The position numbers and the translations under genes were made by a program. A stretch of DNA of 44,273 bases. It comes from Cyanobacterium sp. T60_A2020_053. GTDB taxonomy: Bacteria; Cyanobacteriota; Cyanobacteriia; Cyanobacteriales; Cyanobacteriaceae. This document shows positions 4,055 to 34,329 of this stretch, in pieces (position 1 is the stretch's first letter; each line of letters begins with the position of its first letter). The DNA is taken from positions 1 through 44,273 of the forward strand of contig JACYMF010000039.1 in assembly GCA_015272165.1 (NCBI GenBank), written 5' to 3'. The notes under the pieces were generated by a model that did not search any database, had not been told where the DNA came from, and was given only the letters and a program-made list of their open reading frames with translations.

Positions 4055-4197
4055 AGTAATCGCTTCTTTCCGATTTTGATTCATTGGTGTTGTGCCAGAC
4101 AACCTTTTAATTTTAGCGGTGATTTGTCCTTTCAAAAAGTTTTTTTAGATACATTGCTAGATTTATTTATGAGTTTTAAGATTCCTTAATTTGACCA

Positions 4198-4419: not shown

Positions 4420-4423
4420 GAAA

Positions 4424-4657
4424 CTAATCTAAGTAACGTTTTCTTTTTATTTCTCGTTTGCCAATGCCTTGAGCTTCGTACCAATGAATTTCAGCTTTCC
4501 TAATTGTACCATTTGCTAAACGAATCGTAGCTATACCCTTTAGTTTTCGCCAGCGCCCTTCACCATAGTTTTTCCGAAGACGATTTATGTCTCGAATGGA
4601 GTTACTCACGGCAATATTTTCTATGTTTGTAATTTGACTAATAATTTCAAAATTCAT
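4424..4657 (-). CDS. small basic DUF6972-like protein
   Basis: A 77-residue basic protein with the signature RLRKNYGEGRWRKLKG, followed by an IRLANGTIRKAEIHWYEA segment and a lysine/arginine-rich end (IGKREIKRKRYLD). I recall this pattern as the cyanobacterial DUF6972 family, in which small proteins are frequently encoded next to an acidic partner. The gene is upstream of that partner with a 4-base gap, and downstream of the broken ureF by about 20 bases. Function is not known; a toxin-like or nucleic-acid-binding role is suggested only by charge, size and pairing. Confidence 0.7.
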   Translation of the reverse strand: MNFEIISQITNIENIAVSNSIRDINRLRKNYGEGRWRKLKGIATIRLANGTIRKAEIHWYEAQGIGKREIKRKRYLD

Positions 4658-4677
4658 CCTTCTGGCATTGTTTTTTT

Positions 4678-5354: not shown

Positions 5355-5501
5355 CTAATATAATTGACAATGGATAATGGAAGGAATCCAGAATGTAGAA
5401 TGCTAAACAATTGATTCTGAATAAAATATTACTAGAAAATATTGAATTAACTTTACTTTCTAAATTCTAAATTCTAAATTCTAAATTTTTTCTCCCTTTG
5501 A

Positions 5502-6401: not shown

Positions 6402-6459
6402 TATTTTTCATACTATGTAATTCGGTGAAGGATTATTAATAAATATATATAAATGAAAA

Positions 6460-7365
6460 TTACTTAACCTTCAAACATTCTTCCACATAAGCCCTTAACT
6501 GTTGTTGATTCATCATTTGTACTTTTTGTAACTCCTGTCGATTATTGATGGCGAATAAATTATTTTTTGAACCATTTTTGTCTCGATAATGTTCCAAATG
6601 AACTAAAACACCGTTAATACGACCAATACGATAACCTAGTTTAGCAAATCTTTCAATCAATTCATTATCTTCCCACCCGTAGGATACAAAACGCTCATTC
6701 ATCATTCCCCCTTCCATAAAAATTTCTCGATTAAAAAATACTGCTCCACCCACAGAATCTTCATAATTAAGTTTAAATAGAGCAGGTGATATTTTTGATA
6801 ATTCATATTTTTGCCTAACAAGATATTGATGTGAAGATTGAGAAAAATCAACACAGATTCCATCATATGGACAAACCATATCTAATTTTTTATCTTTGAC
6901 TAATTTATAAGCCGTCAAAATTTGTAACTTTTCAACTAAAGAATCAGTATCCCAAATGACAATGATTTCTGTATCAGTTTTTTGAGCAATTTTGTTAAGT
7001 ATTTTTGTTTTATGAGTATAAATACTATTAGTTGAATAATGATAATACTGACATTTATCTTTTAGATACTCTAATTGAGGGTTAGAGGATTCTTCTGCCA
7101 CCATAATATTTGTGTCAAAATGATGTCTTAAAAAATCAATAGATAAATTAATATTTTTTTCTCTGTCGGGATGTTCTATTTTTACAGGTATGAGAAAAGT
7201 TACATCGTTTAAGTCACGGCAATCTTTATCGATACGAGATGATTCAGTATCTATAACTTCAATATTATATTTTTTGTTAGTGGCAAAACGGTCTTGATTT
7301 TTAGCAGTTGACTTAGTATTTATATACTGTCTCAGTTTAAGGCGAAAACGATCAAAATAACTCAT
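6460..7365 (-). CDS. family 2-type glycosyltransferase, galactosyltransferase-like
   Basis: A 301-residue GT-A-fold transferase. Evidence: a VTFLIPVKIEHPDR start of the nucleotide-binding fold near residue 55, an IVIWDTDSLV motif (the DxD-like metal site) near 136, and the galactosyltransferase C-terminal signature GGAVFFNREIFMEGGMM with WEDNELIERFAKLGY and an LVHLEHYRD motif. No signal peptide or membrane segment, so it probably acts at the cytoplasmic face on an exported glycan. Neighbours include a GT11 remnant and a 52-base relic of this gene's own 5' region. The gene is AT-rich and lacks the GGGCGCT word common elsewhere, which suggests acquisition. Donor and acceptor are unknown. Confidence 0.85.
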   Translation of the reverse strand: MSYFDRFRLKLRQYINTKSTAKNQDRFATNKKYNIEVIDTESSRIDKDCRDLNDVTFLIPVKIEHPDREKNINLSIDFLRHHFDTNIMVAEESSNPQLEYLKDKCQYYHYSTNSIYTHKTKILNKIAQKTDTEIIVIWDTDSLVEKLQILTAYKLVKDKKLDMVCPYDGICVDFSQSSHQYLVRQKYELSKISPALFKLNYEDSVGGAVFFNREIFMEGGMMNERFVSYGWEDNELIERFAKLGYRIGRINGVLVHLEHYRDKNGSKNNLFAINNRQELQKVQMMNQQQLRAYVEECLKVK

Positions 7366-7537
7366 ACTTAAAATTTGGTAGTTTAGTTCTAATACTTATA
7401 TAATAGGTATGAATTTCACTTTTTGATTCATTTATTTTACAGCCCTGCGTGAAATATAGAAGCATAGAATATTACAATAGATTTTTGAAATTTTTTAAAA
7501 GTATAAATTGCTCTTGAAGTTAACGGTTCTTTAAAAA

Positions 7538-8016
7538 CTAGATTTTAAGCATATAACTAGCATATATATCCTCAGTATTAAGATGTTTTAAGTTTTGTCC
7601 AAACCATAAAGATGGGGCAATAACTTTTTTATTTTGATAAATATTTAACCAACTTGCCCACCAACTAAAAGAACTATTTGCGATGATTTGATGTGGAAAT
7701 ATACTCATTAAATATAAGTCTAAATCATCTCGTTGTGATGTCCAAAAATCAAAGCGTTTTTCTTGAAATAAATCTTGATGACGACACCAATCAATATCAT
7801 CAGAAAATATAACAAAATTAGTAGAATTATCAAAATACTGAATTGCTTGAGCGTAATAATTTAAGGAGCAAATGGGGTGATGGTTAGGATATTTTAAATA
7901 ATCTCCTCGTCTTATATGAATAGCACATTGATAATCAGAAAACTTTTTTTGATATATTTCTTGTATTTGATTCATTACATCAGTATTAGATGTACCATCA
8001 AGTTACAAGTAATCAT
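7538..8016 (-). pseudogene. GT11 alpha-1,2-fucosyltransferase-like gene with internal deletion
   Basis: The 3' part (open from an internal ATG at 7975, 145 residues) contains clear GT11 motifs: CAIHIRRGDYL, NFVIFSDDIDWC, NSSFSWWASWLN and KVIAPSLWFG. A normal family member is about 280-300 residues and starts near a GGLGNQ(M/L)FQ motif. Upstream, an ATG at 8014-8016 begins MITCNLMG, the typical family start just before that motif, but the next bases jump straight to SNTDVMNQIQE in another frame. About 130 N-terminal residues, including the GGLGNQ region, therefore seem deleted. The remaining ORF keeps the GDP-fucose motifs but is probably inactive. Confidence 0.75.
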
Positions 8017-8119
8017 TTTTTGTTATTTTGCGAGAATCATATCAATTTCGGAATATGGGTAATACACGGTAAATCATATCATAACTTTATTTGAGGAAAA
8101 TCCATAAAAATGCCTTATT

Positions 8120-8171
8120 CAATGATTCAGTCTCTATAACCTCAATGTTATATTTTTTATCGAGCAAACCG
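8120..8171 (-). pseudogene. relic of a glycosyltransferase 5' region
   Basis: This stretch resembles 7238-7290, the 5' part of the galactosyltransferase-like gene (the region encoding RFATNKKYNIEVIDTES), over about 52 bases at roughly 80% identity, in the same orientation, with a two-base gap that breaks the frame. It points to a former tandem paralogue that has been almost completely lost. Bases on either side (8017-8119, 8172-8314) show no further gene that I can recognise. Confidence 0.6.
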
Positions 8172-8314
8172 CATTATTAAACTGTGAGCATTAACAACCA
8201 CCTCACGTTTATCAGAAAAATAGCAGTTTATTCTATCAAAACTACTATAGAATCAAACTAGGATTACCTTCAGTAGCAATAATATCTAAGGAGAATGACT
8301 TGGCACATAAAAAA

Positions 8315-8386
8315 AGCCTTTGACGAGGATTGAACTCGTGACCTCACCCTTACCAAGGGTGTGCTCTACCACTGAGCTACAAAGGC
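8315..8386 (-). tRNA. tRNA-Thr (GGT)
   Basis: Reverse complement folds as a tRNA: acceptor GCCTTTG paired with CAAAGGC, D-arm with AGCTCAGTGGTAGAGC, anticodon loop CTTGGTAAG with anticodon GGT, and T-arm with GTTCAATCC. About 72 bases, no encoded CCA. A T run follows the 3' end directly. It lies two bases downstream of tRNA-Tyr and is probably co-transcribed with it. Confidence 0.96.
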
Positions 8387-8388
8387 AA

Positions 8389-8470
8389 TGGGCCGAGCTG
8401 GATTTGAACCAGCGTAGGCATAGCCAGCGGATTTACAGTCCGCCCCCATTAACCACTCGGGCATCGACCC
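8389..8470 (-). tRNA. tRNA-Tyr (GTA)
   Basis: Reverse complement has acceptor GGGTCGA paired with TCGGCCC (one G-U-type mismatch position), a long variable arm typical of class II tRNA, anticodon loop ACTGTAAAT with anticodon GTA, and GGTTCAAATCC in the T-arm. About 82 bases, no encoded CCA. It is the upstream member of a Tyr-Thr tandem. Confidence 0.96.
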
Positions 8471-8556
8471 TTTTGTTTTCACAATTATTAATTATAACTT
8501 ATTCGTTTTTAAAATGCCAACTTTCTGACAAAAAGTATTTTTTCTGACTCGAAGCA

Positions 8557-8985
8557 TTAAACAGATTTCATTTCAAATAATTCAAATACTTGTCGGGAAA
8601 AATCTTTAAGTTTTTCTTGAATTTCATGCACTGGAAGGGATTTTCCTTCTAACTGCCAATTTTCGATGGTAGAAAGTCGCCATACTTCTCCAGTGTAGTT
8701 AAATCCGGCGCTTTCAATGCCAATTAATCGTTGTTGCTGATCGATTTCATCGTAGTGGAAGCGAATTTGCACTAAAATACTACGACTTTGAATTTTCCTA
8801 CTCCAGCCGGGAAAGTGAAAGCCTATATCAATGGAATCAGGATCAACTAATTTAATAGTATCAGGATCATTGCGCCAAGGTTTCAGGTCAGCTTTAACAT
8901 CTGGAAACTGCTGTTTGAATAGATTAACGATGACGGCTATTTTTGTGGCAATTTCTAACCCTTTCGCTTTTTCTTCTGCATTCAT
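8557..8985 (-). CDS. conserved cyanobacterial hypothetical protein
   Basis: A 142-residue soluble protein, no signal peptide or membrane segment. Visible features: an N-terminal helix (KAKGLEIATKIAVIVNLFKQ), an aspartate-rich central segment with DPDSIDIGFHFPGWSRK, and a C-terminal amphipathic helix. It looks like a single small alpha/beta domain that I believe is conserved in cyanobacteria, but I cannot name a function. It lies upstream of the tRNA pair with its own start at ATG 8983-8985; an ATG-containing context (AAAATGTTATGAATG) leaves little doubt about the start. Confidence 0.75.
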   Translation of the reverse strand: MNAEEKAKGLEIATKIAVIVNLFKQQFPDVKADLKPWRNDPDTIKLVDPDSIDIGFHFPGWSRKIQSRSILVQIRFHYDEIDQQQRLIGIESAGFNYTGEVWRLSTIENWQLEGKSLPVHEIQEKLKDFSRQVFELFEMKSV

Positions 8986-9114
8986 AACATTTTTGATAAC
9001 GGTTTAATCCTAAGAGAAGGTTAAGTTTTCATGGTAGCAGTTTCCTTCATTACCTACTTAAAATCGGGCTGGATGCCCGATATACAGAGAAAAATGTGAT
9101 AAAAACTTATTACT

Positions 9115-10014
9115 TTATTCCATAGGAATAAGTTTTTCTTCTAAAATATTTTTCATGGTGGGGTTTGCAAAAAATGTTTTCGTATCTTTAATTAAGTTTT
9201 CGCCCCACAGATTTTTAATTAGGTAATCAATATTACCATATTGTCCATCCATGGTGAGGGCTTCCGATGCGGTTTTAATGGCTTCGCTGGTTTCACCTTC
9301 ACGAAAAAGGGTTACAGCTATTGCTAATAAAGGCTCTGCTTGTCTTTCTTCCATTACCCCTAGGGCTTCGCGCCAACGAGTCAGCGCCCCTCGCCGATCC
9401 CCTTGTTCATATTGTGCTATACCAATATTATTGGTAGCGGGCCAGAATTTTTCATCCAGCTTGATGGCTTGACGGTAGGCGCTGATAGCTTGATTAAATT
9501 GTTTTAGTTGTAAATGGGAGTTGCCTAAGTCGAAGTATGCTTGTGGTGCTTCTGAATTAATTGCTAAACCTTTTTCTAATTCTTGAATGGCGGATTGATA
9601 TTCGCCCATTTGAAAATAAGAGTTGCCCAAAGAAAATAACACTTCTGCTTCTTCGGGTGCTAATTTTTTGGCAGTTAATAGGGCATCTATGGCTTTTTGA
9701 TTTTCCTGTTGTTGCCCATATAATGTACCCAAAATGAACCAAGTTTCGTATTGATTGGGCGCTAACTGGGTGGCTAATTCGGCACGGGTTAAGGCTAAGT
9801 CAAATTCTCGAAAACGGATCAGTTGTACTGCATCTTGTATTAGTTGCATCCCATAGGGTGCTAGGGTTTCAGCGTCAACTTTTGGGGTGTAGGGCGCTAG
9901 GGATTGGGCGCGGAGGGCGCTGGGATTAAAATAGTTTCCTAAGATGGTAATTATTAATAATAATTTGTAACGAAACAACACTTTTACTTTATTTCCTTTT
10001 CTATATATTTTCAT
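9115..10014 (-). CDS. TPR-repeat protein with N-terminal membrane anchor or signal
   Basis: A 299-residue protein. Residues about 13-33 (VLFRYKLLLIITILGNYF) are a signal peptide or membrane anchor, so the rest is likely periplasmic or lumenal. Five or so tetratricopeptide repeats follow from about residue 58 to 225, for example AEVLFSLGNSYFQMGEYQSA, PQAYFDLGNSHLQLKQFNQA and WPATNNIGIAQYEQGDRRGA. TPRs bind other proteins; the partner is unknown. The gene ends about 40 bases after the menF stop region but is a separate reading unit on the same strand. Confidence 0.88.
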   Translation of the reverse strand: MKIYRKGNKVKVLFRYKLLLIITILGNYFNPSALRAQSLAPYTPKVDAETLAPYGMQLIQDAVQLIRFREFDLALTRAELATQLAPNQYETWFILGTLYGQQQENQKAIDALLTAKKLAPEEAEVLFSLGNSYFQMGEYQSAIQELEKGLAINSEAPQAYFDLGNSHLQLKQFNQAISAYRQAIKLDEKFWPATNNIGIAQYEQGDRRGALTRWREALGVMEERQAEPLLAIAVTLFREGETSEAIKTASEALTMDGQYGNIDYLIKNLWGENLIKDTKTFFANPTMKNILEEKLIPME

Positions 10015-10053
10015 TTTTTAATTTTAGCTTATTAGTTCTATTTTTGAATAAAG

Positions 10054-11496
10054 CTAATTATTTTCCAGCGCCCTCAACAATACTTGAAATTTTAGTTCGA
10101 TTTCACTCAATTCTTGTTCAGGTTTTGAACCAGCAACGATACCAGCACCAGCATATAATCGGGCTTTATTACCCCTAATTAAAGCAGAGCGAATCCCCAC
10201 AATAAATTCACAATTTCCCTTAGTATCTAACCAGCCGATGGGCGCTGCATATAAAGAGCGATCAAAATTTTCATAGGCAGAAATTTCCGCACAAGCAACG
10301 TCAATGGGAATACCAGCAACGGCAGGAGTTGGATGTAATTTAGCGATAATTTCTAAGGGGTTAATAGTTTCGATAATCTCTGCATAAATTGGTGTCCAAA
10401 GATGTTGAATATTGGATAATTTTAATAGTTGTAATGAGGCTTTTTTAGGTGTTAATCCTAATTTTAATAACTGTTCAAAAAGAAATTGACTGACGATTTC
10501 ATGTTCTCTTTTTTCTTTTTCACTATTTAATAAATTTTCGCCCAAATAACTATCATTATATTCATTTTTGCCTCTCGGTGCTGATCCGGCTAAAGCATCG
10601 GTTACTAATTGTCGATCTTGAATAGATAAAAGTCTTTCTGGACTCGCCCCGATAAAGTATTCTTCTTCGTTATTACCTACCGCAAAAATATAACAATCAG
10701 GATGATTTTTTCGCAAATTTTCCAGAGATTTAATGATGTTACACGGGCGCTGGAGCTCAATTTCTAAGGCATGGGCAATAACTATTTTTAATAATTTTCC
10801 CCTGTGAATGGCTTGTAAACCTCGATTAACTTTATCAAGAAAAGATTGATAATTATTGGAGTTAATAACAGGTAAAGATGAAGGGTTATTATCATTATTT
10901 TTGTCTTGATAAAATTGCGTTAAATTTTTACTGAAATTATGACTTAGATAATGTTTAATTAAGTCTAATTCAGGGGCATCACTAAGGTAAAAAGTATTGA
11001 CAGTAATAATATATTGATTGTGACGCTTAAATAACTGAATATAAGGAATAAAAATTTGTGCTTGAGGGAAAGATTGACAGGAATTGTCACCATGAGCAAC
11101 AAAATTAAAAGTTGAGAAAAAATAGGGGATTTTTTCACCTTCTAAGTTATCTTGAAAATCAATTTTGTGTTGATATTTATTAATAAAATCTTGACAAATC
11201 TGGAAGCGATTTAATGTGTTATTGTTAGCATTAAACTTATCCTGATTAACCTCTAACTTAACCAGCGCCCCCAACCCCACCACAGCTTCTTCTTTGCGTT
11301 GATTTTCACAGTAAAAAGACACCTGTTGCGGTGGTTTCATCATTGCCAAAAAAACTAATAAATCTATGGGATTAATTTCTTGAGAAATAGAGATAATTTC
11401 TCCCTCATAATCTTGATTTTGTGGAGCAGAAAAAATTAGTTTTTGTAATGTTTGGGAATAGTCGGTTAAAAAATGGTTATCGGGAATTACCGGCAT
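10054..11496 (-). CDS. menF: isochorismate synthase
   Basis: Converts chorismate to isochorismate, the first step towards phylloquinone, the photosystem I quinone. The 480-residue length and the chorismate-binding C-terminal half fit: KIVIAHALEIEL, FIGASPERLL, TDALAGSAPRGK, KREHEIVSQFL, LHPTPAVAGIP, FIVGIRSALI and GAGIVAGSKPEQELSEIELK. The N-terminal half is more variable, as usual. It is divergent from menA, another gene of the same pathway, across about 480 bases, so shared control is plausible. Confidence 0.95.
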   Translation of the reverse strand: MPVIPDNHFLTDYSQTLQKLIFSAPQNQDYEGEIISISQEINPIDLLVFLAMMKPPQQVSFYCENQRKEEAVVGLGALVKLEVNQDKFNANNNTLNRFQICQDFINKYQHKIDFQDNLEGEKIPYFFSTFNFVAHGDNSCQSFPQAQIFIPYIQLFKRHNQYIITVNTFYLSDAPELDLIKHYLSHNFSKNLTQFYQDKNNDNNPSSLPVINSNNYQSFLDKVNRGLQAIHRGKLLKIVIAHALEIELQRPCNIIKSLENLRKNHPDCYIFAVGNNEEEYFIGASPERLLSIQDRQLVTDALAGSAPRGKNEYNDSYLGENLLNSEKEKREHEIVSQFLFEQLLKLGLTPKKASLQLLKLSNIQHLWTPIYAEIIETINPLEIIAKLHPTPAVAGIPIDVACAEISAYENFDRSLYAAPIGWLDTKGNCEFIVGIRSALIRGNKARLYAGAGIVAGSKPEQELSEIELKFQVLLRALENN

Positions 11497-11978
11497 AACA
11501 CTAGAATTATAAATATTTAAGGTGTGTTGAAAAAATGGCTTGAGGGATGGGAGGTATCAGGTTTCGGGTGTCGCGGTGTCGCGGTGAAATGCTTGTAAAT
11601 TAAAGACCTTCGCCAAACAGTGACTTTTCATAAGTCGAACATTTCTATTAATGATTTTTATTTAGAGTAAAGAGGGGCATTTTTAAGCAAAAAAGACCAT
11701 TTTTGGTAGTTTTTTTGTTTTTATGTTGCTGAAAATCTTTATTTGACAAGATTTTGGACTTATTCACTAGAGATGACATGGTTAACTGTAAAGATAAACA
11801 GGGTTTATCCATAAGAAAATGTTAACGAAAATTTAATTTTAAATAAATTATCAATACAAAACCACCTCAAACCTTGATCCCTTAATGGGTTATGATGAAT
11901 ACCCACAGGGCAATTAAGCCACATCAGAGGAAAATTAGTCTTAATAATTATTTTCTATTTTACCGAAATCAAACAATT
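11497..11978. other. menF-menA divergent intergenic region
   Basis: No gene seen. It must contain both promoters. A heptad-type repeat remnant lies at about 11550-11583 (GGTATCAGG, then GGGTGTCGCGGTGTCGCGG). A TTGACA at 11743-11748 has a weak -10-like ACTAGA 17 bases later, pointing to menA; this is a guess. Confidence 0.45.
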
Positions 11979-12884
11979 ATGACGATTACCAATCCAGCTA
12001 TCAATATCAGCCAACGTCAACTATGGTTAGCCGCTATCAAACCGCCTATGTACACGGTAGCAATTATTCCCATTACTTTTGGCGCTGGTTTGGCTTATTA
12101 TGAAACGGGGATTTTTGACGGCGTAATTTTGACAGTTTTTTTGTTTAGCGCCCTCGCCATTATTGCTTGGCTAAATCTTACTAATGATGTTTTTGATGCT
12201 GACACGGGAATTGATGTAAATAAAGCGCACTCCGTCGTTAATCTGACAGGTAAAAAAAATCTCGTGTTTTGGATTGCTAATATTTTTTTACTGCTAGGTT
12301 TAGGGGGAATTTTTCTGATTAATTGGTGGCAAGAGGATATAACGGTTTTTTTGATTATACTTGCCAGTTGTTTTCTCGGTTATACTTATCAAGGTCCTCC
12401 TTTTCGTCTCGGTTATCAAGGTTTAGGGGAGTTAATTTGTTTGCCGACTTTTGGCCCTATGGCGGTGGGCGCTTCTTATTATAGTCAAACTCAGTCTTTT
12501 TCGACTAATTCTCTGCTGGTTTCCAGTTTAATTGGGGTTTCTACAGCAATTATTCTATTTTGCTCTCATTTTCATCAAGTTGAGGATGACTTGAAGGCAG
12601 GGAAAAAGTCTCCCATTGTGCGTTTAGGCACGGCGAAGGGCGCTCTTTTTTTAATGGTCTCAGTTATCATTTTTTATCTATTAGTGTCGTTATTTTGTCT
12701 CTGGGGGATGTTACCGTTAACTTGTTTCGGGGTATTCCTAACTATTCCAGTGGCTTATCAACTGGTTAACCATGTTAATCAATATCATGCCCAACCTGAC
12801 AAGGTTAAAAATTGCAAGTTTATAGCGGTTAACTTTCATTTTCTCACTGGTATGGTGATGGGCGCTGGTTTATTCCTTGGTTAG
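11979..12884 (+). CDS. menA: 1,4-dihydroxy-2-naphthoate phytyltransferase
   Basis: Attaches the phytyl chain to the naphthoate ring in phylloquinone synthesis; integral membrane prenyltransferase of the UbiA family. Two aspartate motifs are visible: NLTNDVFDADTGID near residue 67 and HFHQVEDDLKAGKKSP near 199, with about eight or nine hydrophobic segments. The frame is open from 11892, but I chose the ATG at 11979 (MTITNPAINISQRQLW, 301 residues) because the upstream residues are charged and unlike the family. Its divergent partner is menF. Confidence 0.95.
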   Translation: MTITNPAINISQRQLWLAAIKPPMYTVAIIPITFGAGLAYYETGIFDGVILTVFLFSALAIIAWLNLTNDVFDADTGIDVNKAHSVVNLTGKKNLVFWIANIFLLLGLGGIFLINWWQEDITVFLIILASCFLGYTYQGPPFRLGYQGLGELICLPTFGPMAVGASYYSQTQSFSTNSLLVSSLIGVSTAIILFCSHFHQVEDDLKAGKKSPIVRLGTAKGALFLMVSVIIFYLLVSLFCLWGMLPLTCFGVFLTIPVAYQLVNHVNQYHAQPDKVKNCKFIAVNFHFLTGMVMGAGLFLG

Positions 12885-13269
12885 GGTTTACTGTGCGTAA
12901 CGTCAGTTAAGTAGGTAAGCAAAATTAATTGTGATTTTTATTTTTCTCAAAGCTATGAGAACAGAGGAAGGCAAGGGGCTTAAGCCCGTTGTTTTATTGC
13001 ATAAATTGTAATGGAGTTTTTTCAAAGTCGAAAATTAATTGTTGGTGTCAGGTGTTAGGTTAAAGAATTAACAAAGTAAATCCTTTGACTGATGAATCAA
13101 TGTTTGAGGGTTTTAAACCTGAAACCTGCTACCTCCCTTAACTTAACATTTGAATCAGTGCATAACGTCAATTAAATAGTGAAAACTAAAGATTCAAGCT
13201 AGAAAAACGATTAAGGGTTAAAATATTTTGCTAGTGATCATAAATATTAGTATTTATAGTAAAAAGCAA
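12885..13269. other. menA to M23 peptidase intergenic region with repeats
   Basis: No gene seen. It holds a perfect 12-base palindrome GGGCTTAAGCCC at 12976-12987 followed by T-rich sequence (possible menA terminator, or a repeat, since a related AAGGGGTTTAAAACCCTTG lies near 20340). A dispersed repeat module follows at about 13032-13174. Confidence 0.55.
13032..13174 (+). repeat. dispersed repeat module, copy 1
   Basis: Starts with TTAATTGTTGGTGTCAGGTG, continues with a heptad-like segment and GGGTTTTAAACC, and ends with AACATTTGAATCAGTGC and TAACGTCA. The same order of blocks occurs at 33858-34053 with extra heptads and spacer. Non-coding. Confidence 0.75.
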
Positions 13270-13863
13270 ATGTTAAAACTAAGATGGCGTAGCTTGTGCC
13301 TATTCTTATTAGCCTTCGTGATGATAACCTTGATTCATCATGTTATGTCGCCACTATCGGAAAAAGTGGCATTATCCAAGGAAGAAAGAGTTGCCGCCGT
13401 CTGGAGTAAAGCATCTTTTCCTGTGGAGAATTTTCAGGGTTATACTTCTGGATTTGGTTATCGTATCCATCCCATTTCAGGAAGAAGACAGTTTCACAAT
13501 GGCTTAGATATTGCGGCGCCTTTGGGTAGTTATGTGCGCAGTTGGTGGGGCGGAGAAGTGGTGGCTTTATCAGATAATACGGGTTGTGGTACGATGATTA
13601 CCATTCAATCTGGGCAATGGAATCATGTTTATTGTCATTTGATGGGCAAGGTAGAAAAAACGCCTCAAGGGACAGTATTAGTTGATCGTAATGGTAGTAT
13701 ATTTTTATGGTTAGGGCAAACGGTGGGCGCTGGGACGAGAATTGCTAGGGTAGGAATGACGGGTAGAACTACAGGACCTCATTTACATTGGGAATTAAAG
13801 TACAACGGTAAGAGAATTGATCCTGCTGATGTATTACGGCAAATGTATGCCCAAAACAGTTAG
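13270..13863 (+). CDS. M23-family metallopeptidase (LytM/peptidoglycan hydrolase-like)
   Basis: A zinc peptidase predicted to cut peptidoglycan cross-links. The N-terminus is a membrane anchor or signal (SLCLFLLAFVMITLIHHVM, about residues 8-26), so it acts outside the cytoplasmic membrane. Catalytic motifs counted from the ATG at 13270: HNGLDIA with H76 and D80, and HLHWE with H171 and H173, inside the typical GFGYRIHPISG and VGMTGRTTGPH context. The frame extends to a TTG at 13228; the ATG gives a normal signal sequence, 197 residues. Convergent with the methyltransferase gene downstream. Confidence 0.93.
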   Translation: MLKLRWRSLCLFLLAFVMITLIHHVMSPLSEKVALSKEERVAAVWSKASFPVENFQGYTSGFGYRIHPISGRRQFHNGLDIAAPLGSYVRSWWGGEVVALSDNTGCGTMITIQSGQWNHVYCHLMGKVEKTPQGTVLVDRNGSIFLWLGQTVGAGTRIARVGMTGRTTGPHLHWELKYNGKRIDPADVLRQMYAQNS

Positions 13864-14117
13864 AGGAATGAATTATGAATGATAAATTATGAATTATCAA
13901 GTGTAGGAAAATCATGATTTTTTATACATCATTAGATTGCATAAAATCTTATTTTCGAGGGAAGAATACTTGATTTTTATTGATAATTTAAGTTTGAGGT
14001 ATTTATGGTTTCTAATCACTCTCGAATCTTGATATTAACGAGCTTATTATTTATTCTCCAAAACCTATTTATAAGTCAAAACTCATAATTATCACTTCAT
14101 AATTTATAATTCTCAAT

Positions 14118-14143
14118 GTTGGGTTTCTTTACCTTAACCCAAC
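14118..14143. terminator. possible shared hairpin between convergent genes
   Basis: GTTGGGTT and AACCCAAC form an 8-bp stem with a loop of about 10 bases between the convergent M23 peptidase and methyltransferase genes. No good T run follows on either strand, so it may instead be a remnant of a repeat. The remainder of 13864-14149 shows only AT-rich sequence. Confidence 0.35.
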
Positions 14144-14149
14144 CTACAA

Positions 14150-15163
14150 TTAAACATTAATCATTATTTTTTCTGATAATTTATTGTTAATATCACACTG
14201 CTGTAAAATATTTTTTACTAAAGATTTAATGACGTTAACTACCACACTATTGCCAAACTGTTGATAAGCTACATTTTTATTATCACTGAGGATAAAATTA
14301 TCGGGAAAACCCATGATTCTAGCGCACTCCCTCGGTGCTAATTTACGGATTGTGTTATTAATAAAGTAAAGACCTGTTTTCGCGCCCACCCCACCACCAT
14401 AAGCGGATAAAGTGATAGCATGACCATAAGCATGATAAATTCTTTCCCCTTGTCTGCCTTGACTAATTGCACCAATACGGATGGGTTTTTGAGGATAATT
14501 ACCGTTAATATCAGGCTCAATAGTAATATTTTCTTTAAAAATTACATCGTTTCTTCTAATAATAAACTCTTTAGTTTCTTTGTCATCTAAACAAAAATCA
14601 ATTAATTTAGTTTGACTATTTTCTAAGCTAGGAAAAATAAAATTTGTGAAGTTTAAATCATTTCTAAAAGCAATAATATAAATTCTTTCTCGTTTTTGTG
14701 GTACACCAAAGTAAGATGAATTTAACACTTTTTCAAAAACATTATAACCAATTTCTTGTAAACTATTTTTGACAACTTTTAAGGTATTACCTTGATCATG
14801 AGTGGCAAAATTTTTGACATTTTCTAAGATTAAAATTTGCGGTTGATGATAACTAGCAATTCTCACTACATCAAAAAAAAGTGTCCCTCTGGTATCTTCA
14901 AAACCTAATTTTTTCCCTGATATACTAAAGGCTTGACAGGGAAACCCAGCGCACAAAATATCATGATTGGGTATATTATGGGCTGGAATTTTGGTAATAT
15001 CTCCTGCTGGTAAAATACCGTAATTTTCTTGATAAATTTTTTGACAATTTTTATCCCATTCGGAAGCGAAAACACATTGGGCACCATAAAAATTTAAGGC
15101 TTGATGAAAACCGCCAATTCCTGCAAATAAATCAATGAATTTAATATTTTTTAATGGTTTCAT
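14150..15163 (-). CDS. DNA (cytosine-5) methyltransferase, M.HhaI-like, predicted GCGC
   Basis: A 337-residue C5-methyltransferase with all ordered motifs: I DLFAGIGGF (11-19), IV GFPCQAFSISG with catalytic C76, VI ENVKNF (114-119), VIII PQKRERIYI (155-163), and IX/X RECARIMGFP and FGNSVVVNV. The target-recognition region (about 225-268) has QGERIY and AITLSAYGGG, very close to what I recall of M.HhaI, which methylates GCGC. It follows a broken HinP1I-like endonuclease gene; HinP1I also recognises GCGC. Activity is likely since nothing is missing. The gene is AT-rich and has none of the GGGCGCT words found in surrounding genes, which suggests transfer. Confidence 0.94.
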   Translation of the reverse strand: MKPLKNIKFIDLFAGIGGFHQALNFYGAQCVFASEWDKNCQKIYQENYGILPAGDITKIPAHNIPNHDILCAGFPCQAFSISGKKLGFEDTRGTLFFDVVRIASYHQPQILILENVKNFATHDQGNTLKVVKNSLQEIGYNVFEKVLNSSYFGVPQKRERIYIIAFRNDLNFTNFIFPSLENSQTKLIDFCLDDKETKEFIIRRNDVIFKENITIEPDINGNYPQKPIRIGAISQGRQGERIYHAYGHAITLSAYGGGVGAKTGLYFINNTIRKLAPRECARIMGFPDNFILSDNKNVAYQQFGNSVVVNVIKSLVKNILQQCDINNKLSEKIMINV

Positions 15164-15751
15164 TTTATAATATCATTAATTACTAAAATTTTATTTTTTG
15201 AAAAAAAAATCAATAATTCTTTTAATTACATTTTCTGGCATTTCATGAAAAAATAACCTTCTCTGGTCTTTTATGCTTTTTAATTCTTCTGAACTTAAAA
15301 TATCTTTTGGCAAAATTTCACCAGTAAATGCTTTTAGCCATTTTTCTACTTCATTGTCAAAGTTCCACATTTTTTTGTAAGTTTTTACAGGTCTTTTATC
15401 CACTTGATTAAAACCAGCAGAAATATTAGCTTTTTTTAATGAAATATTCTCTATATGTAAAACATTTTTAATTATTATTTTTACCTGAACTTGAATATCT
15501 GCTTTTTTATATTTAATCGATTCTTCATATTTATCTGTTGATATACCTAATAAGTTTGCATTCTCTTTGGAAATTTTTACAGGTATATGTAAAGCATCAA
15601 TCGAACTAATTTTTTCAGGAATATATCCCATTATCTCTAGCCACTTTTTTGCTTCATTATCTATTTTCCATGATTCAAATTTTTTACAAATTTCTTTTTC
15701 ATTTAAAAAACCTTCTTTTGCGGTAAGTAAACCTATATATTTGGTATTCAT
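15160..15751 (-). pseudogene. HinP1I-like restriction endonuclease, frameshifted and C-truncated
   Basis: The frame from 15751 (186 residues) resembles R.HinP1I as I remember it: TAKEGFLNEKE, FESWK, KKWLEIMGY, GFNQVDKRP, MWNFDNEVEKW, AFTGEILP and DQRRLFFHE. HinP1I is about 247 residues with an SD-X18-QXK active site; here the matching positions read A84-D85-X18-S104-L-K106, so the Gln is lost. The frame ends after nine T (plus-strand A run 15201-15209). With eight T it would read FFSKNKILVINDIIK, matching HinP1I around KNRVLVLTDIL, then stop at the TGA overlapping the methyltransferase ATG. The last 70 or so residues of HinP1I are absent. Probably inactive. Confidence 0.8.
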
Positions 15752-15966
15752 TATCTATTTATTTTAATGTTCTTATCATTCAAATATAGCAATTCTATAT
15801 CATTCATGAGAAACTAAATTTGGCTTAATAAACAAGTGTTATTAATTCTACATTCTCAATTTATGCCAAGTGAAAATGATATAAATCAGATAAGATTACT
15901 ATAGTTAGGTTTTATTTCTCAAGCCAATTCCTACAAACATTTTAATCATTACTTCTGATTTCTTAC

Positions 15967-17445
15967 ATGATTTTAACTGATGAGCTAATCTTTCAATATC
16001 GCCGATGTGACCGTAAAGCATTTTTAAATTATTATTGTAAGGAAGATGAAAAACCACAACCGAGAGATTTTGTTGCTAAGTTAAAACAGGAAAATATCCT
16101 TCATTGTCAAAATCTTCTCAATCATCTTCAGTTATCTTATCAACAACCCCAAACTCTATGGCATGATACTTCTGGCATAATAGCAGAAACGCTGGAGTTG
16201 ATGGCGAAGGGCGCTGAATGTATTTATGATGGTAAATTATCTACTTTTTGGTATTATGACCTTAATTTGCCACCGGTAGAAATGGTAATTAATCCAACTC
16301 TATTAATTAGACAAAACCAACCTTCTCATTTTGGCAATTGGAGTTATCGGGGGGTTAATTGCCATTTAGGGAAAAACCCTAAGCCTGAGTATAAGTTAAT
16401 TTCCGCTCTACAAACGGCGATAATTGGCGATATTCAGGGGAATCACCTCAATCATGGGGAGTTTGTGGTGCGTAGTTTGAAAATTCATCGGGTGAGTTTG
16501 GCTATTTGGTTGCCGAAGGTGAAGGAGTTAGTTAAGGAGTTGGTAATTTTATTACAGTCACAAGAAATTCCAGAGGTGTTTGTGTCTCGTCAAAAATGTC
16601 ATCTTTGTAATTGGCATGATGATTGTTATTCCAGCGCCCGTCACCTCAATCATTTATCATTGATACCGGGTATAACGCCCCAACGTTACCAATTATTAGT
16701 TAATCAGGGTATTAAAGATTTTGAGAGTTTGGCAGAGTTATCAGCTTTCGAGTTAGCACAAATCATCGATCATCCTACCATTGCTGATAATCTTTATCTA
16801 CAGGTGAGGGCGCTGAAACTTAATCAAGGGGTGGCTAAAATTTTTCCTCTTCCTACTATCCCCCATAGTACCATCGAATTATATTTTGACATTGAAGCTG
16901 AACCAGAGCGCAATCTCGATTATTTACTGGGGGTTTTGTTAGTTGATCATGAACAACAAGAACAAAGGTACTATTATTTTTTAGCAAAAGATAAAACAGA
17001 AGAAGGCAAAGCGTGGGGAGAGTTTTTACAATTTATGGAGCAATGGCGAGGGGCGCTGGTATATCATTATTCTGAATATGAAGTGGAAACCATCAAACGT
17101 TTAGCTCATCTTTATCATACACCTCCAGCAATTTTACAACCGCTACTATCACGGTTAGTGGATGTGCATAAAATTATTACTCGTAACTACGTTTTACCTG
17201 TGGAAAGTTATTCTCTCAAATCCTTAGCAAAATGGTTAAATTTTCACTGGCGCACTCCTGAAACTGGAGAAATTAACGTTAATGGTCGTTTGTTGGGGGG
17301 AGATCAATGTGTGGTATGGTACGATCAATGGTTAACTACGGGTAATCCAGACTATCTACAATATATTTTGACTTATAATGAGGATGATTGTCGAGCTACC
17401 TATGTGGTCAAAAATTGGTTACAAAATCAAGGGTTGGTGAATTAA
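15967..17445 (+). CDS. TM0106-family RecB-like putative nuclease
   Basis: A 492-residue protein with a Cas4/RecB-like N-terminal half and an RNase H-like C-terminal half. Cysteines placed as in iron-sulfur nucleases are visible: C14 (YRRCDRK) and C211-X2-C214-X5-C220 (CHLCNWHDDC). A helix-hairpin-helix-like segment follows (LSLIPGITPQRYQLLVNQGI, 231-250). The exonuclease-like part has YFDIEAEPERN, YHYSEYEVETI and YNEDDCRAT, giving the acidic residues expected for metal binding. Family members are widespread in cyanobacteria, with presumed DNA processing function that has not been shown. No CRISPR array or helicase partner is adjacent. Confidence 0.87.
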   Translation: MILTDELIFQYRRCDRKAFLNYYCKEDEKPQPRDFVAKLKQENILHCQNLLNHLQLSYQQPQTLWHDTSGIIAETLELMAKGAECIYDGKLSTFWYYDLNLPPVEMVINPTLLIRQNQPSHFGNWSYRGVNCHLGKNPKPEYKLISALQTAIIGDIQGNHLNHGEFVVRSLKIHRVSLAIWLPKVKELVKELVILLQSQEIPEVFVSRQKCHLCNWHDDCYSSARHLNHLSLIPGITPQRYQLLVNQGIKDFESLAELSAFELAQIIDHPTIADNLYLQVRALKLNQGVAKIFPLPTIPHSTIELYFDIEAEPERNLDYLLGVLLVDHEQQEQRYYYFLAKDKTEEGKAWGEFLQFMEQWRGALVYHYSEYEVETIKRLAHLYHTPPAILQPLLSRLVDVHKIITRNYVLPVESYSLKSLAKWLNFHWRTPETGEINVNGRLLGGDQCVVWYDQWLTTGNPDYLQYILTYNEDDCRATYVVKNWLQNQGLVN

Positions 17446-17603
17446 GCATTGAGATAAATGAGTAATTTATGAAAAATAAATATTTGGCTTAACTCTTTAA
17501 TTTATGAGCATTTCACCTGAAACCTGACACCTCCCCTCACCATTGGACTTTTTCCGCAATCCCTATGTAAACTAAAATAGACAAATTATCATTCATCACA
17601 TCC

Positions 17604-18506
17604 ATGACTCAACCATCCAGAGGGCATCTTTTAACGGAACAAATTAACCCTCAGAGTACCAGTTTAGACCAATTATCATCATTAGAAATAGTTGATCTAT
17701 TCAATCAAGAAGATTTAAAAACCATTGATGCCGTCAAAGCAAGTCGGGAAGTCATCGCCCAAGCTATAGACATCACGTCGGAATCCTTGAGGGGGGGAGG
17801 GCGCTTATTTTACATCGGAGCGGGTACTAGCGGACGTTTAGGGGTGCTTGATGCAGTAGAATGTCCCCCCACCTTCTGCACTCCGCCCGACTTGGTACAG
17901 GGGATTTTAGCAGGGGGTGAGGGCGCTATGTTTAAAAGTTCCGAAGCCCTGGAAGATCGCTCGGAAGATGGGGCTCAAGCTATGATTGATCATGGTATTA
18001 CTTTTCAAGATGTAGTTGTTGGTATTACAGCAGGTGGTACAACGCCTTATGTGCGAGGGGCGCTGGAAAAGGCGAGAAAAATTGGTGCGAAAACAGTATT
18101 TATCAGTTGTGTGCCTTCCGAGCAGGTTAAAATTGATGTTGACGTGGATATTAGGCTGTTGACGGGCGCTGAAATTTTAGCAGGTTCAACCCGTCTAAAA
18201 GCTGGTACAGTTACTAAAATGGTGCTAAATATTATCTCTACGGGGGTAATGGTTAAACTAGGAAAAGTTTACGGTAATCGCATGATTGATGTCTCCGTGA
18301 CAAATAGTAAATTGTTAGATCGCGCTTTGCGTATTATCACTGACTTGACAAATTTAGATCGGCAAACTGCTCAAGAACTTTTACAACAAAGCGGTTTATC
18401 AGTAAAATTAGCTTTGTTGATGCACTGGAAAAACCTTAATTTAACACAAGCTCAAACTTTGTTAACTGAAAATGACGGTAATCTCCATCAGTCTTCACAA
18501 CTATAA
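17604..18506 (+). CDS. murQ: N-acetylmuramic acid 6-phosphate etherase
   Basis: Cleaves the lactyl ether of MurNAc 6-phosphate to GlcNAc 6-phosphate and lactate in cell-wall recycling; cytosolic, SIS-domain fold. The 300-residue length and motifs fit: LDQLSSLEIVDLFNQED, YIGAGTSGRLGVLDAVECPP, GGEGAMFKSSE with the catalytic acid, GITAGGTTPYV, and STRLKAGTVTKMVLN followed by MIDVSVTN. No MurNAc transporter or kinase is next to it. It contains GGGCGCT words in different reading frames, a good example that the word is not codon-driven. Confidence 0.96.
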   Translation: MTQPSRGHLLTEQINPQSTSLDQLSSLEIVDLFNQEDLKTIDAVKASREVIAQAIDITSESLRGGGRLFYIGAGTSGRLGVLDAVECPPTFCTPPDLVQGILAGGEGAMFKSSEALEDRSEDGAQAMIDHGITFQDVVVGITAGGTTPYVRGALEKARKIGAKTVFISCVPSEQVKIDVDVDIRLLTGAEILAGSTRLKAGTVTKMVLNIISTGVMVKLGKVYGNRMIDVSVTNSKLLDRALRIITDLTNLDRQTAQELLQQSGLSVKLALLMHWKNLNLTQAQTLLTENDGNLHQSSQL

Positions 18507-18698
18507 CTAAGCGCAGGAATAATATCAAGTTATCAATGATTGTGATAAAGTCTCTCGCCAAGACGCAAAGACGCAAAGTTTTATAGTCAGTAATCAAAGG
18601 GATTTGAGATGATAAAGGGTTTAAGTTTCTTGCTTCTTCGTCTCTTCCCTATATACGATTAGTTTTACACGAGAATTTATACGGAAAAATAATTAATA

Positions 18699-20249
18699 AT
18701 GTTGAATTTATCAGAAAATTTTACTACTGTAGTAATAGGGGTAATTGCCCTGACGATTCTTATTTGGGGCTATAATCGAGGCAAACAATTTGGCGAAATT
18801 GGCATTTTAGCTTGGTTACAATCTGTAACTTTAATGACTCCTTGGCTATTCTTTTTTGCTTGTTTAGCAACAGGTATTTACCTTAATTTTATCGGTATTA
18901 TTATCCTGTTATTATTATCGGCTAGTATCTATATTTATCTAGGTAAAGTGATCCGCAAAAAAGCCTTAGAACAAAGTTTATCGTCTTTTAATCTTGATAG
19001 AATTAATCAACAAAAAACTAATATTTTGAATACAGACAAAGACCCACAAGAGCAAACAAAACAAGAACTACCATTACAATCTAATAATCAATCTTCTTTT
19101 CGTAATCAACCTCCTGAGCCTAATTTTACCCCCATTGATGAAGATGATTTAAACATTATTAAGGGAATTTTTGGCATTGACACTTTCTTTTCTACTGAAG
19201 TAATCCCTTATCAAGAGGGGGCAATTTTTAAAGGTAATTTACGCAGTGAACCTGATATTGCCCACGACAAGTTAAGCTCTAAATTAACTGAAAAATTAGG
19301 GGAAAAATATCGTTTATTTTTAGTCGAAACCCCGGAAGGTAAACCTGTTGTTATTGTCTTACCTAGTACAAACGATCCTAAACCTTTAACTTTAGCCCAA
19401 AAAAATATTGCTTTGGTGTTATTGGTGGCAACAATTTTCACTTCTGTGGAAGGCATTAGTATTTTATTGGGTTTTGATTTAATTGATAATTGGCAACGTT
19501 ATCCAGAGTCTTTACCGTTGACTTTGGGTTTATGGTTGATTTTATTTGCCCATGAGATGGGGCATCGTTTTTATGGTCAGAAGTATGGAGTTAAGATTAG
19601 CTTACCTTTTTTTCTGCCCAATATCCAAATTGGTAGTTTTGGAGCGATTACTCGTTTTGAGAGTTTGTTAGCTAATCGTGCGGTTTTATTCGATATTGCT
19701 TTTGCGGGTCCTGCGGTGGCAGGAGTGTTATCTTTAATTATGTTAGTGTCAGGGTTGATGATGTCGGGAGGTGACACGGGGTTACAAATTCCTTCCCTAT
19801 TTTTTCAAGGCTCAGTTTTGGTGGGGGGTTTAGCTAAATTGATTTTAGGTGCTACTCTATCTCAGCAAACGGTAGGTATTCATCCTTTGATGATTTTGGG
19901 TTGGTTGGGGTTAGTGATTACGGCGCTTAATTCTTTACCGGCTGGGCAGTTGGATGGAGGGCGCGTTATTCAAGCGATTTATGGTCGTAAGGTTGCCCGT
20001 CGTGCTACTATTTTGACGTTAATTATTCTGGGTATTGTTAGTTTATTTAATACTATTAATGCTTTGCCTTTTTATTGGGCGATTGTGATTCTCTTTTTAC
20101 AACGGGATTTAGAGCGCCCTTGTCTTAATGAGTTAACGGAATTGGATGATGGGAGGGCGCTTTTGGGTATTGGTTTAATTTTGTTGGCTTTGCTAACTTT
20201 GATTCCTGTTACCCCTAGTTTGGCTATTCGTTTTGGTATCGGTATTTAG
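18699..20249 (+). CDS. site-2 protease family (M50) zinc metalloprotease
   Basis: Intramembrane protease of the EGY1-like type found in cyanobacteria and plastids. Two N-terminal membrane segments (about 10-28 and 45-80) precede a soluble insertion (90-235, with a DEDDLNIIKGIFGI element seen in the family). The membrane protease core follows: HEMGH at 285-289 in a hydrophobic segment and LPAGQLDGGRV near 413-423, supplying the third zinc ligand. About eight membrane segments in total over 516 residues. Substrate unknown; family members act in regulated proteolysis and, in plants, chloroplast development. Confidence 0.93.
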   Translation: MLNLSENFTTVVIGVIALTILIWGYNRGKQFGEIGILAWLQSVTLMTPWLFFFACLATGIYLNFIGIIILLLLSASIYIYLGKVIRKKALEQSLSSFNLDRINQQKTNILNTDKDPQEQTKQELPLQSNNQSSFRNQPPEPNFTPIDEDDLNIIKGIFGIDTFFSTEVIPYQEGAIFKGNLRSEPDIAHDKLSSKLTEKLGEKYRLFLVETPEGKPVVIVLPSTNDPKPLTLAQKNIALVLLVATIFTSVEGISILLGFDLIDNWQRYPESLPLTLGLWLILFAHEMGHRFYGQKYGVKISLPFFLPNIQIGSFGAITRFESLLANRAVLFDIAFAGPAVAGVLSLIMLVSGLMMSGGDTGLQIPSLFFQGSVLVGGLAKLILGATLSQQTVGIHPLMILGWLGLVITALNSLPAGQLDGGRVIQAIYGRKVARRATILTLIILGIVSLFNTINALPFYWAIVILFLQRDLERPCLNELTELDDGRALLGIGLILLALLTLIPVTPSLAIRFGIGI

Positions 20250-20794
20250 GGTGCGCTAAGAAAGTTAAGTTATGGGGGCAAATTGACAATTGATAACGGA
20301 TAGTTGACAAATATGAGGTTCTACTATTTGTGTATAGGTAAGGGGTTTAAAACCCTTGTTATCATAAACTCTCCAGAAATACAGGCAAGATGCCTGTTTC
20401 ACCGTGCAAAAATCCTAATTGTTGGAGAAGTTTAATACTCGCGCGCTGGGCTTGTATTATTGAAGATCATTACAGCGAAAAACGGGGTAAATCTAGCCCG
20501 ATGGATATTGAGTGGGCAAAAGATGGACAAACTGGAGAGTTATTTATTGTCCAAGCGCGCCCCGAAACTGTACAATCTCAAAAATCAGGCAACGTCTTAA
20601 AAGATTATAAGTTAATTGGTAGCGGTGATGTGTTAATTACTGGTCGTGCGGTGGGTGAAATGATTGGGCAAGGTTTAGCGCGCGTCATCCTTGATGTACA
20701 CCAAATCAATCAGTTTAAAGAGGGTGAGGTGTTAATCACTAATAAAACCGACCCTGATTGGGAACCGATTATGAAAAAAGCTAGTGCCATTGTC

Positions 20795-21036
20795 ACTAAT
20801 CAGGGTGGGCGTTTTCATTCTCAAAAATGTTAGTTTCTCAAACTAGCCAATAATCTGAAATTCAGAGGTTTTTAACTACTAATAAATCAATTAATAGTAA
20901 AAAATCCTCCTGTCTCCCTGAATCTCCCCCCTTTTTAAGGGGGGTTGGGGGGGATCATCCTTATATTGTCTTCTTGTCAAAAACAAATCAATTTTGATCC
21001 TGACTTTGAAAACACCCTGACTAATCAGGGTGGGCG
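20795..21036 (+). repeat. 17-bp direct repeats around the insertion in ppsA
   Basis: ACTAATCAGGGTGGGCG is present at 20795-20811 and again at 21020-21036, encoding TNQGG twice. It was single in the ancestral gene and was duplicated with the insertion. The second copy is also the right arm of a small palindrome, ACCCTGA-CTAA-TCAGGGT. Confidence 0.85.
20807..20992 (+). mobile_element. 186-bp MITE-like repeat, copy 1, inserted in ppsA
   Basis: Identical by eye to the reverse complement of 43833-44018. It has no coding capacity, and contains a series of hairpins: AGTTT-CTC-AAACT, CTGAA-A-TTCAG, TACTA...TAGTA and CCCCCCTTTTTAAGGGGGG. No clear terminal inverted repeats. In ppsA it is followed by 27 more bases (20993-21019) before the second copy of the 17-bp direct repeat. 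Its transposition enzyme is not in the window. Confidence 0.8.
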
Positions 21037-22261
21037 CACCTGCCATGCGGCAATCATCGCCAGAGAAATGGGTATCCCTGCTATTGTTGGTTGTGGTAAT
21101 GGAACAGGGGTATTACAAACAGGTCAAGATTTAACGGTATCGTGCGCTGAGGGTGAAGAAGGTCGGGTTTATGATGGTTTGATTCCTTTTGACATTGTGG
21201 AAACGGCGCTGGATAATTTGCCGAAAACTAAAACTAAAATTTTGATGAATGTGGGCAATCCTGAAGAAGCATTCAAATTGGCTTCTATTCCTTGTGACGG
21301 CGTGGGTTTAGCTCGTTTAGAGTTTATCATCGCTAATCATATTAAAGCGCACCCCCTCGCTCTTATGCACTTTGATCAGTTACAAGACCCTTTGGTAAAA
21401 CAGGAAATTGCTAATTTAACGAAAGGTTATGACAATAAGGCTGATTTCTTTGTGGATAAAGTGGCACGAGGGGTGGGCGCTATTGCGGCGGCTTTTTATC
21501 CTAATCCCGTGGTGGTCAGGATGTCTGATTTTAAATCTAATGAGTATGCTAATCTGTTGGGGGGCGCTGATTTTGAACCGAAAGAAGAAAACCCCATGAT
21601 TGGTTGGCGCGGCGCTTCTCGTTACTATGATGAAAAATATCGAGACGCTTATGGCTTGGAGTGTCGGGCGCTGAAACGAGTGCGCGATGACATGGGTTTA
21701 ACTAATGTAATTCCCATGATTCCATTTTGTCGTACTCCCTACGAAGGTCGTCAAGTTTTAGCAGAAATGGCAAAACACGGCTTAAAACGGGGTGAAAATG
21801 GCTTACAAGTCTATGTCATGTGTGAAATTCCTAGTAATGTCATTTTAGCGGATCAATTTAGTGAAATTTTCGACGGTTTCTCTATTGGTTCTAATGATTT
21901 AACTCAGTTAACCTTGGGATTAGACCGAGATTCTTCCTTGGTAGCGCATATTTTTGACGAACGCAATCAAGCGGTTAAAGATATGGTAGCGTTAGTTATT
22001 GCCAAAGCGAAACACAATGACCGAAAAATCGGTATTTGTGGACAAGCGCCTAGTGATTACCCTGAGTTTGCTCGTTTCTTGGTTGAGTTAGGCATTGATT
22101 CCATCAGCTTAAACCCTGATTCGGTGTTAAAAACTTTACTGGATATTGCTAAGTTGGAGGAAAGATTGGAGAATAAATAGGGGTTGATGAAAAAGTAGAA
22201 TCATGATGGTAATGGATAATGGATAACTAATTCTTCATCTGTTATCCATTACCGATTAATT

Positions 22262-22346
22262 CTTACTCTCCTTCTCCCTTTCTCCCGTGCTTCCTCTGCT
22301 TCCTCTTCCAAAATTTAGATTTTTGGTTCAACTTTGCAAAAATCTT
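22262..22346 (-). repeat. dispersed repeat with AAATCTAAATTTTGG core, copy 1
   Basis: The reverse complement has TTTTTGCAAAGT, then CAAAAATCTAAATTTTGG and GAGGAAGCA, and ends in a purine-rich stretch GGGAGAAAGG. The same order is found on the plus strand at 28711-28787. It lies between the ppsA remnant and gyrB. Confidence 0.7.
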
Positions 22347-22398
22347 GCTTTCTCCCCTGCTTTAAGACAGCCATAGACAAGAGAGACAGGGGAAATTT

Positions 22399-34322: not shown

Positions 34323-34329
34323 ATCTGTA

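Follow-up and report, generated by a model that had tools for sequence, protein, structure and literature searches.

A GCGC-centred, asymmetric iterated word in a cyanobacterial genome with little HIP1, and a solitary M.HhaI-like methyltransferase predicted to act on its kernel

The host genome of the DNA described here (G000) contains very few copies of the iterated word HIP1 and thousands of copies of another word, GGGCGCT, whose kernel is GCGC, the predicted target of an M.HhaI-like cytosine-5 methyltransferase that lies beside a dead restriction endonuclease gene. We propose, at about even confidence for and against, that this methyltransferase now plays the role of the CGATCG enzyme of HIP1 genomes, the word built round GCGC having replaced HIP1 and a second factor setting the flanks of the word. 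The features found in the window (the whole stretch of DNA that was analysed, 44,273 nucleotides) are as follows:

14150..15163, minus strand: M.HhaI-like, GCGC-type cytosine-5 DNA methyltransferase, 337 aa, intact, matching PF00145 over its full length
14933..14944, minus strand: FPCQ motif, residues 74-77, aligned to M.HhaI and invariant in 11/11 family homologues
14435..14467, minus strand: recognition loop 1, SQGRQGERIYH, residues 233-243, with Arg237 at the site of M.HhaI Gly236
14390..14419, minus strand: recognition loop 2, AITLSAYGGG, residues 249-258, identical to M.HhaI and invariant in 11/11 family homologues
15191..15751, minus strand: what is left of a HinP1I-family restriction endonuclease (186 of about 280 aa), with matches to PF11463 and R.HinP1I
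15164..15210, minus strand: lesion seen by three-frame translation, a frame break at a T run, after which the homology continues for about 13 residues in a different frame
1..44273, both strands: 68 copies of the iterated word GGGCGCT, with the predicted methyltransferase target, GCGC, as its kernel

The first-pass annotation had placed the two genes within 14150-15751, and they were confirmed there, at 14150-15163 and 15191-15751. Among solved structures the best match of the methyltransferase was M.HhaI (E 8e-114), with 173 of 313 aligned residues identical (55%). The protein has the PF00145 fold with all conserved motifs, including PCQ within the FPCQ sequence that we take to be the catalytic motif, and its QGERIY and AITLSAYGGG segments align with the recognition loops of M.HhaI, in agreement with the earlier reading of this region. 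Measured against the loops of the M.HhaI type (GGQGERIY and AITLSAYGGG), the only deviation is the Arg in place of Gly236. At this position all 10 family relatives have Gly and only the host genome has Arg, and in 31 HhaI-type loci of public genomes (at least 49% identity and the loop covered; 31 of the 80 loci listed) the residue was Gly in 30, Ser in one and Arg in none; the best public-genome match listed was 61% identical. The dN/dS of the gene against four relatives was 0.18-0.25, which indicates long-term purifying selection and is silent on selection after the death of the endonuclease. In a weakly resolved tree the host copy did not cluster with those of the congeners; its locus is rich in AT (GC 0.31 and 0.24 versus 0.36) and lies in a word-free stretch of 2.48 kb, the nearest GGGCGCT copies being at 13725 and 16209. 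Taken together, these three observations suggest that the methyltransferase locus may have come late. A second GCGC-type methyltransferase is represented elsewhere in the host genome, at G000:C65:28480-28701, by a C-terminal fragment of 73 aa that shares 70% identity with the window copy.

The gene upstream is HinP1I-like, as had been suggested, on the basis of partial matches: it covers only positions 17-117 of the 208 of the PF11463 R-HINP1I profile and aligns with only residues 1-54 and 60-145 of the 247 of R.HinP1I, falling short of a full-length R-HINP1I domain and representing a remnant, not a functional member of the family. When the three frames were translated beside the homologues of G007 and G003, the frame was seen to break at a T run near 15201-15210 and the homology to stop at the start of the methyltransferase, and the C-terminal residues that are present in the intact G007 homologue (about 80) were missing, which bears out the earlier description of the gene as frameshifted and C-truncated. 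Because the frame break sits in a homopolymer, a sequencing error is possible there; the C-terminal loss is independent of it. Since the 186-codon open reading frame contains no internal stop, the damage looks recent. The locus thus consists of the remains of a HinP1I/HhaI-type restriction-modification system in which the endonuclease is dead and the methyltransferase is intact; with only a broken endonuclease adjoining it, the methyltransferase is a solitary enzyme, as had been anticipated, and its predicted product is G(m5C)GC.

When the genomes of the order were searched for this pair, PF11463 was found in 4 of 60 (G000, G003, G007 and G010). The frame of the G003 gene is broken, the G010 gene has lost its middle and retains a 156-aa frame, and only the homologue of G007 (G007:C1:1572332), with an open frame of 283 aa, is intact. 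Like the HhaI/HinP1I restriction-modification systems, which act at GCGC, the host locus combines a methyltransferase with M.HhaI loops and a HinP1I-family endonuclease beside it; unlike them, the endonuclease is broken in three of the four genomes, including the host. No PF11463 match was found beside the methyltransferase in G002, G004, G008, G011-G014 or G036. Close homologues of the methyltransferase (E up to 1e-100) were present in 12 of 388 genomes of the order, namely the host, 10 of its 14 other family members and G036, and the copies outside the host are 70-75% identical to its enzyme; in G012 the copy runs off the end of a contig, and in G010, which has two copies, one contains an internal TGA. 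The latter copy (G010:C1:882329-883318) adjoins the endonuclease gene without its middle; this pair seems to be in decay in both its genes, and G010 keeps a solitary copy at another place.

The word GGGCGCT occurs 68 times in the window compared to 1.99 expected from shuffles, and 5,427 times in the whole 3.36-Mb genome (2655 + 2772 on the two strands; about 1,615 per Mb), while the reversed word occurs 1 + 1 times. The excess over expectation is 41 times in the host and 2.5 times in three complete congeners (G002-G004). The abundance and the GCGC core claimed in the first-pass annotation were therefore upheld, and the word itself required refinement, as it is longer and asymmetric, approximately 15 bases of the form GGTGrnGGGCGCTgg. 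The bases flanking GGGCGCT are G at -6 (59%) and -5 (61%), T at -4 (44%), G at -3 (69%), a purine at -2 (87%) and G directly after the word (60%). Copies with their flanks preserved were found in all six frames of the long open reading frames (at least 120 aa) and outside them, and on these grounds neither a codon effect nor a protein motif was accepted as the source of the word. Deamination or very-short-patch repair was also considered as a driver and gave no clear sign, the C4-to-T one-off variants standing at 1.27 of expectation in the host and 0.77 in G002-G004. When the 388 genomes were ranked by density, the host came first and none was near it, the next being G125 (about 620 per Mb, with 632 copies of the reversed control) and G071 (about 510 per Mb, with 295), at rounded genome sizes. 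A ranking by the ratio of word to reversed word was dropped, since AT-rich genomes contain few copies of the reversed control and the ratio misleads, making G036 (102:2), G011 (177:2) and G002 (286:8), among others, look high. Among the titles listed in full-text literature searches, none was on a GGGCGCT word in a cyanobacterium.

Other sequence peculiarities were noted along the way. GGCC is nearly absent from a 447-kb sample of the host genome (0.06 of expectation) and stands at 0.00-0.34 in ten family genomes. In a 242-kb sample of the host, AATACTT followed GGNGRN at 76 of its 195 places, pointing to a second repeat family. Within the window, a 32-bp interspersed repeat at 13044-13075 has more than 10 copies at 94% in G002, and about 200 bp outside the listed open reading frames (8313-8521) are 92-97% identical in three congeners and are perhaps an RNA gene.

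To delimit the constant part of the word, one-letter variants were counted position by position, on the reasoning that they should be common outside a methyltransferase target and not inside it. With the upstream GGNGRN fixed, the one-offs numbered 6, 36 and 38 at positions 1, 2 and 7 of GGGCGCT, and 1, 2, 2 and 0 at positions 3-6, which spell GCGC. Without this anchor, one-offs in the host stood at 1.9, 3.2 and 3.0 times their level in G002-G004 for positions 1, 2 and 7, and at 1.05, 0.66, 1.21 and 0.48 times that level for positions 3-6. HIP1 served as the positive control: relative to the HIP1-poor host, one-offs at positions 1 and 8 were 14-fold in G002-G004 and 34-fold in five other family genomes, compared to 0 to 2.2 inside CGATCG. 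In the anchored test, position 1 of the new word varied rather little as well (6 versus 1.25 per kernel position, p 0.012), and the 8-mer GGGCGCTG gave a blurred edge of the kernel at position 3 (1.80 versus 1.92 at position 1, at small counts). The kernel of the word is GCGC, the same four bases that the methyltransferase is predicted to recognise. The link between word and GCGC methyltransferase is stronger than the first-pass annotation had it; the link looks real, its cause being unproven.

An association of the word with the enzyme by itself was not supported. The ten family relatives and G036 carry the enzyme and only 24-498 copies of GGGCGCT, and the GCGC count in the ten sampled was 0.23-1.03 times the expected one. 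Of the 12 genomes with a close enzyme among the 388, 11 fall below the word density of the host, and simple causation of the word by the enzyme was rejected. Nor does the orphaning of the methyltransferase account for the word by itself, since G003 has a dead HinP1I-like gene and a live methyltransferase, yet keeps 2,053 HIP1 sites. What sets the host apart from its enzyme-bearing relatives is the near absence of HIP1 together with the absence of the putative CGATCG methyltransferase.

HIP1 (GCGATCGC) is present at 59 sites in the host compared to 2064, 2053 and 1989 in G002, G003 and G004, respectively, and the observed-to-expected ratio of CGATCG is 0.83-1.0 in the host and 9-29 in ten sampled relatives. 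A 422-aa enzyme, queried with the G002 sequence and regarded, on account of its distribution across HIP1 genomes, as the putative CGATCG methyltransferase (presumably of the DmtC/M.Ssp6803I type), was found in 51 of 60 genomes of the order, as a single match of at least 300 bits in 35 and in two pieces in 16, and is absent from the host assembly. The eight other genomes without it were G001, G005, G006, G009, G013, G021, G043 and G044; G001 and G005 are 63% and 67% complete, and G001 has a fragment of the enzyme at a contig end. Whole HIP1 counts were available for 15 genomes: the three HIP1-poor ones (the host, G006 and G009) all lack the 422-aa enzyme, and 10 of the twelve HIP1-rich ones have it, the other two being the assemblies of 63-67% completeness. 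G006 and G009, of the same family as the host, have 41 HIP1 sites each, no PF00145 genes and a GC content of about 0.45, and no replacement word was detected in the 80 and 20 kb sampled from them. In G013, the 422-aa enzyme was not found and HIP1 is kept (10 sites in 40 kb); this genome has two copies of a close GCGC-type methyltransferase and no excess of GGGCGCT. When word sites of the host were aligned to congeners, 7 of 72 (on average two alignments each, some redundant) coincided with a HIP1 site in one congener or more, compared to 29 of 2760 alignments at random positions, about 1% per alignment, which indicates that the word stands partly where HIP1 was and mostly arose elsewhere. The host also keeps a PF02086 gene (D12, possibly GATC).

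Replacement of HIP1 by another word has precedent. Elhai (2015; PMC4390886) described alternate HIPs, GGCGCC in Calothrix PCC 7103, rCCGGy in Oscillatoria PCC 10802 and GCsGC in Cyanothece PCC 7822; according to the parts of that paper used here, HIPs occur at 1,000-2,000 per Mb, the three genomes have matching methyltransferases, Calothrix lost its CGATCG methyltransferase, and a recognizable GCGC methyltransferase occurred in 0 of 97 genomes. As far as this source goes, the host genome resembles these cases in its low HIP1 count, in a GC-rich word at 1,000-2,000 per Mb, in a methyltransferase that by prediction could methylate it and, as regards Calothrix, in being without the CGATCG methyltransferase; it differs in that the alternate HIPs are palindromic or degenerately so while the host word is asymmetric, about 15 bases long and palindromic only in its 4-base kernel, and in that many members of the family carry a close homologue of the enzyme and lack the word. 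We therefore assign the host genome to the alternate-HIP phenomenon as given there (PMC4390886), new in its GCGC-type methyltransferase and its non-palindromic word. The parallel that had been drawn with Synechocystis is apt on the portions of the literature consulted (PMC6604393, PMC4390886): M.Ssp6803I (slr0214, m5CGATCG) is likewise a solitary enzyme, an m5C methyltransferase with a target that forms the core of HIP1, the iterated word of its genome (PMC6604393), the difference being that its target is CGATCG and that HIP1 holds a second mark, GATC, whereas the host word contains GCGC and no GATC.

Under the reading that we prefer, HIP1 has collapsed along with the loss of the putative CGATCG methyltransferase and the asymmetric GCGC-centred word has taken its place; the solitary GCGC methyltransferase would mark the kernel of the word, as the CGATCG methyltransferase does in HIP1 genomes; a methylation-dependent process, such as the G-m5C-directed mismatch repair proposed by Elhai, would favour and keep the copies; and a second DNA-reading factor would set the flanks GGTGrn and gg. 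Elhai's account, in which words build up around the site of the resident m5C methyltransferase once the CGATCG enzyme is gone, fits most of the observations, and leaves the one-sided flanks and G013 unexplained. Against our proposal, the word extends beyond GCGC, with strong flanks that are one-sided, and the enzyme is widespread among relatives without the word and may have reached its locus late; a search for a mechanism of flank choice turned up nothing. The host genome moreover carries further m5C (PF00145) methyltransferases at C30, C31 and C37.

The association of word and enzyme could instead be a coincidence, which we consider rather unlikely, the word being a Chi-like or DNA-uptake-like signal with its own reader protein and the methyltransferase an unrelated restriction-modification relic common in the family. 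Chi sites and DNA uptake sequences are short, asymmetric and present in hundreds to thousands of copies, with a strong core and weaker flanks; they are non-palindromic and G-rich on one strand, and uptake signals cluster in terminators. The host word is likewise long, non-palindromic and G-rich on one strand, with an asymmetric core and graded flanks, it is indifferent to reading frame, it favours the coding strand of the long open reading frames (193 versus 140, p 0.004), and 10 of 14 family relatives have the enzyme without it. Set against this, the one-off pattern of the word has its edges at or beside GCGC, as that of HIP1 has its edges at CGATCG, and the overrepresentation is tied to the loss of HIP1, on whose sites in congeners some copies fall, and to a methyltransferase target. 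In addition, the strand counts of the whole draft show no bias (p 0.12), contig orientation being arbitrary in this assembly of 118 unordered contigs, and, unlike uptake signals, the copies are scarce outside long open reading frames (34 of 367, while 25% of the sample lies outside).

That the partner of the word is another methyltransferase of the host (C30, C31, C37 or a non-m5C enzyme) appears improbable. The three further PF00145 genes and several PF02086 genes make such a partner conceivable, and plasmid searches with C37 and C30 gave generic names only among the 40 matches listed for each. However, C31, which is 42% identical to the window methyltransferase, has orthologues in the HIP1 genomes G003, G004 and G011 (78-95%), none with the word, C30 has one in G001 (95%), also without the word, and the GCGC kernel fits the one enzyme with an M.HhaI-like target recognition domain. 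At the C31 locus (L093:672-2448), the m5C methyltransferase is followed by two adjacent open reading frames of 132 and 130 aa, which may be a split partner endonuclease. A changed specificity, in which Arg237 in loop 1 would make the enzyme read a longer asymmetric site such as GnGCGCT and so explain the one-sided word, is very improbable: this Arg is unique among 11 family sequences and against the 31 HhaI-type loci and is found in the sole word-bearing genome, and M.HhaI does read its palindrome through a single asymmetric loop pair, but QGERIY and AITLSAYGGG are unaltered and a single change would probably not suffice to recognise GGTG at a distance of eight bases.

A second, weaker case is that of G071, a genome without HIP1. 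The first-pass annotation had held that relatives rich in the word and lacking a GCGC methyltransferase would count against the link; none of the 388 genomes reaches the density of the host, and G071, of another family, is somewhat rich in a related word and has no close GCGC methyltransferase. In G071, CGATCG is at 0.17 of expectation in 41 kb and the top words are centred on GGCGCY, with GGCGCT at 6.3 and GGCGCC at 3.3 of expectation in 53 kb. G071 has three PF00145 genes, none of the 422-aa type, and for two of them the sampled congeners offered no close match; in G049, a congener, both HIP1 and a 56% relative of the 422-aa enzyme are present. The C57 enzyme of G071 is 50-53% identical to plasmid enzymes, and one of the 12 names among the matches listed was 'modification methylase HindV', the others being generic; the specificity of HindV is GRCGYC. 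As far as the source consulted describes it, Elhai's Calothrix case resembles this one (PMC4390886).

The reason for the thousands of copies of HIP1 in cyanobacterial genomes has been a question since the 1990s. In one member of this genus, HIP1 has fallen and another word has risen, and the constant part of each word is the predicted target of a resident m5C methyltransferase. A tentative generalisation, which we hold as possible and somewhat doubtful, is that the word has been re-targeted within a single genus, a solitary GCGC methyltransferase having become the anchor of a new HIP-like word once the CGATCG enzyme was lost, the specificity of the methyltransferase deciding which word accumulates and a separate reader imposing the flanks. 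The asymmetry of the new word makes it possible to test the kernel, predicted to be methylated, apart from the flanks, and the relatives that have the same enzyme and lack the word are ready-made controls. If true, the re-targeted word would be a natural experiment in which the kernel of methylation is set apart from all other parts of the signal.
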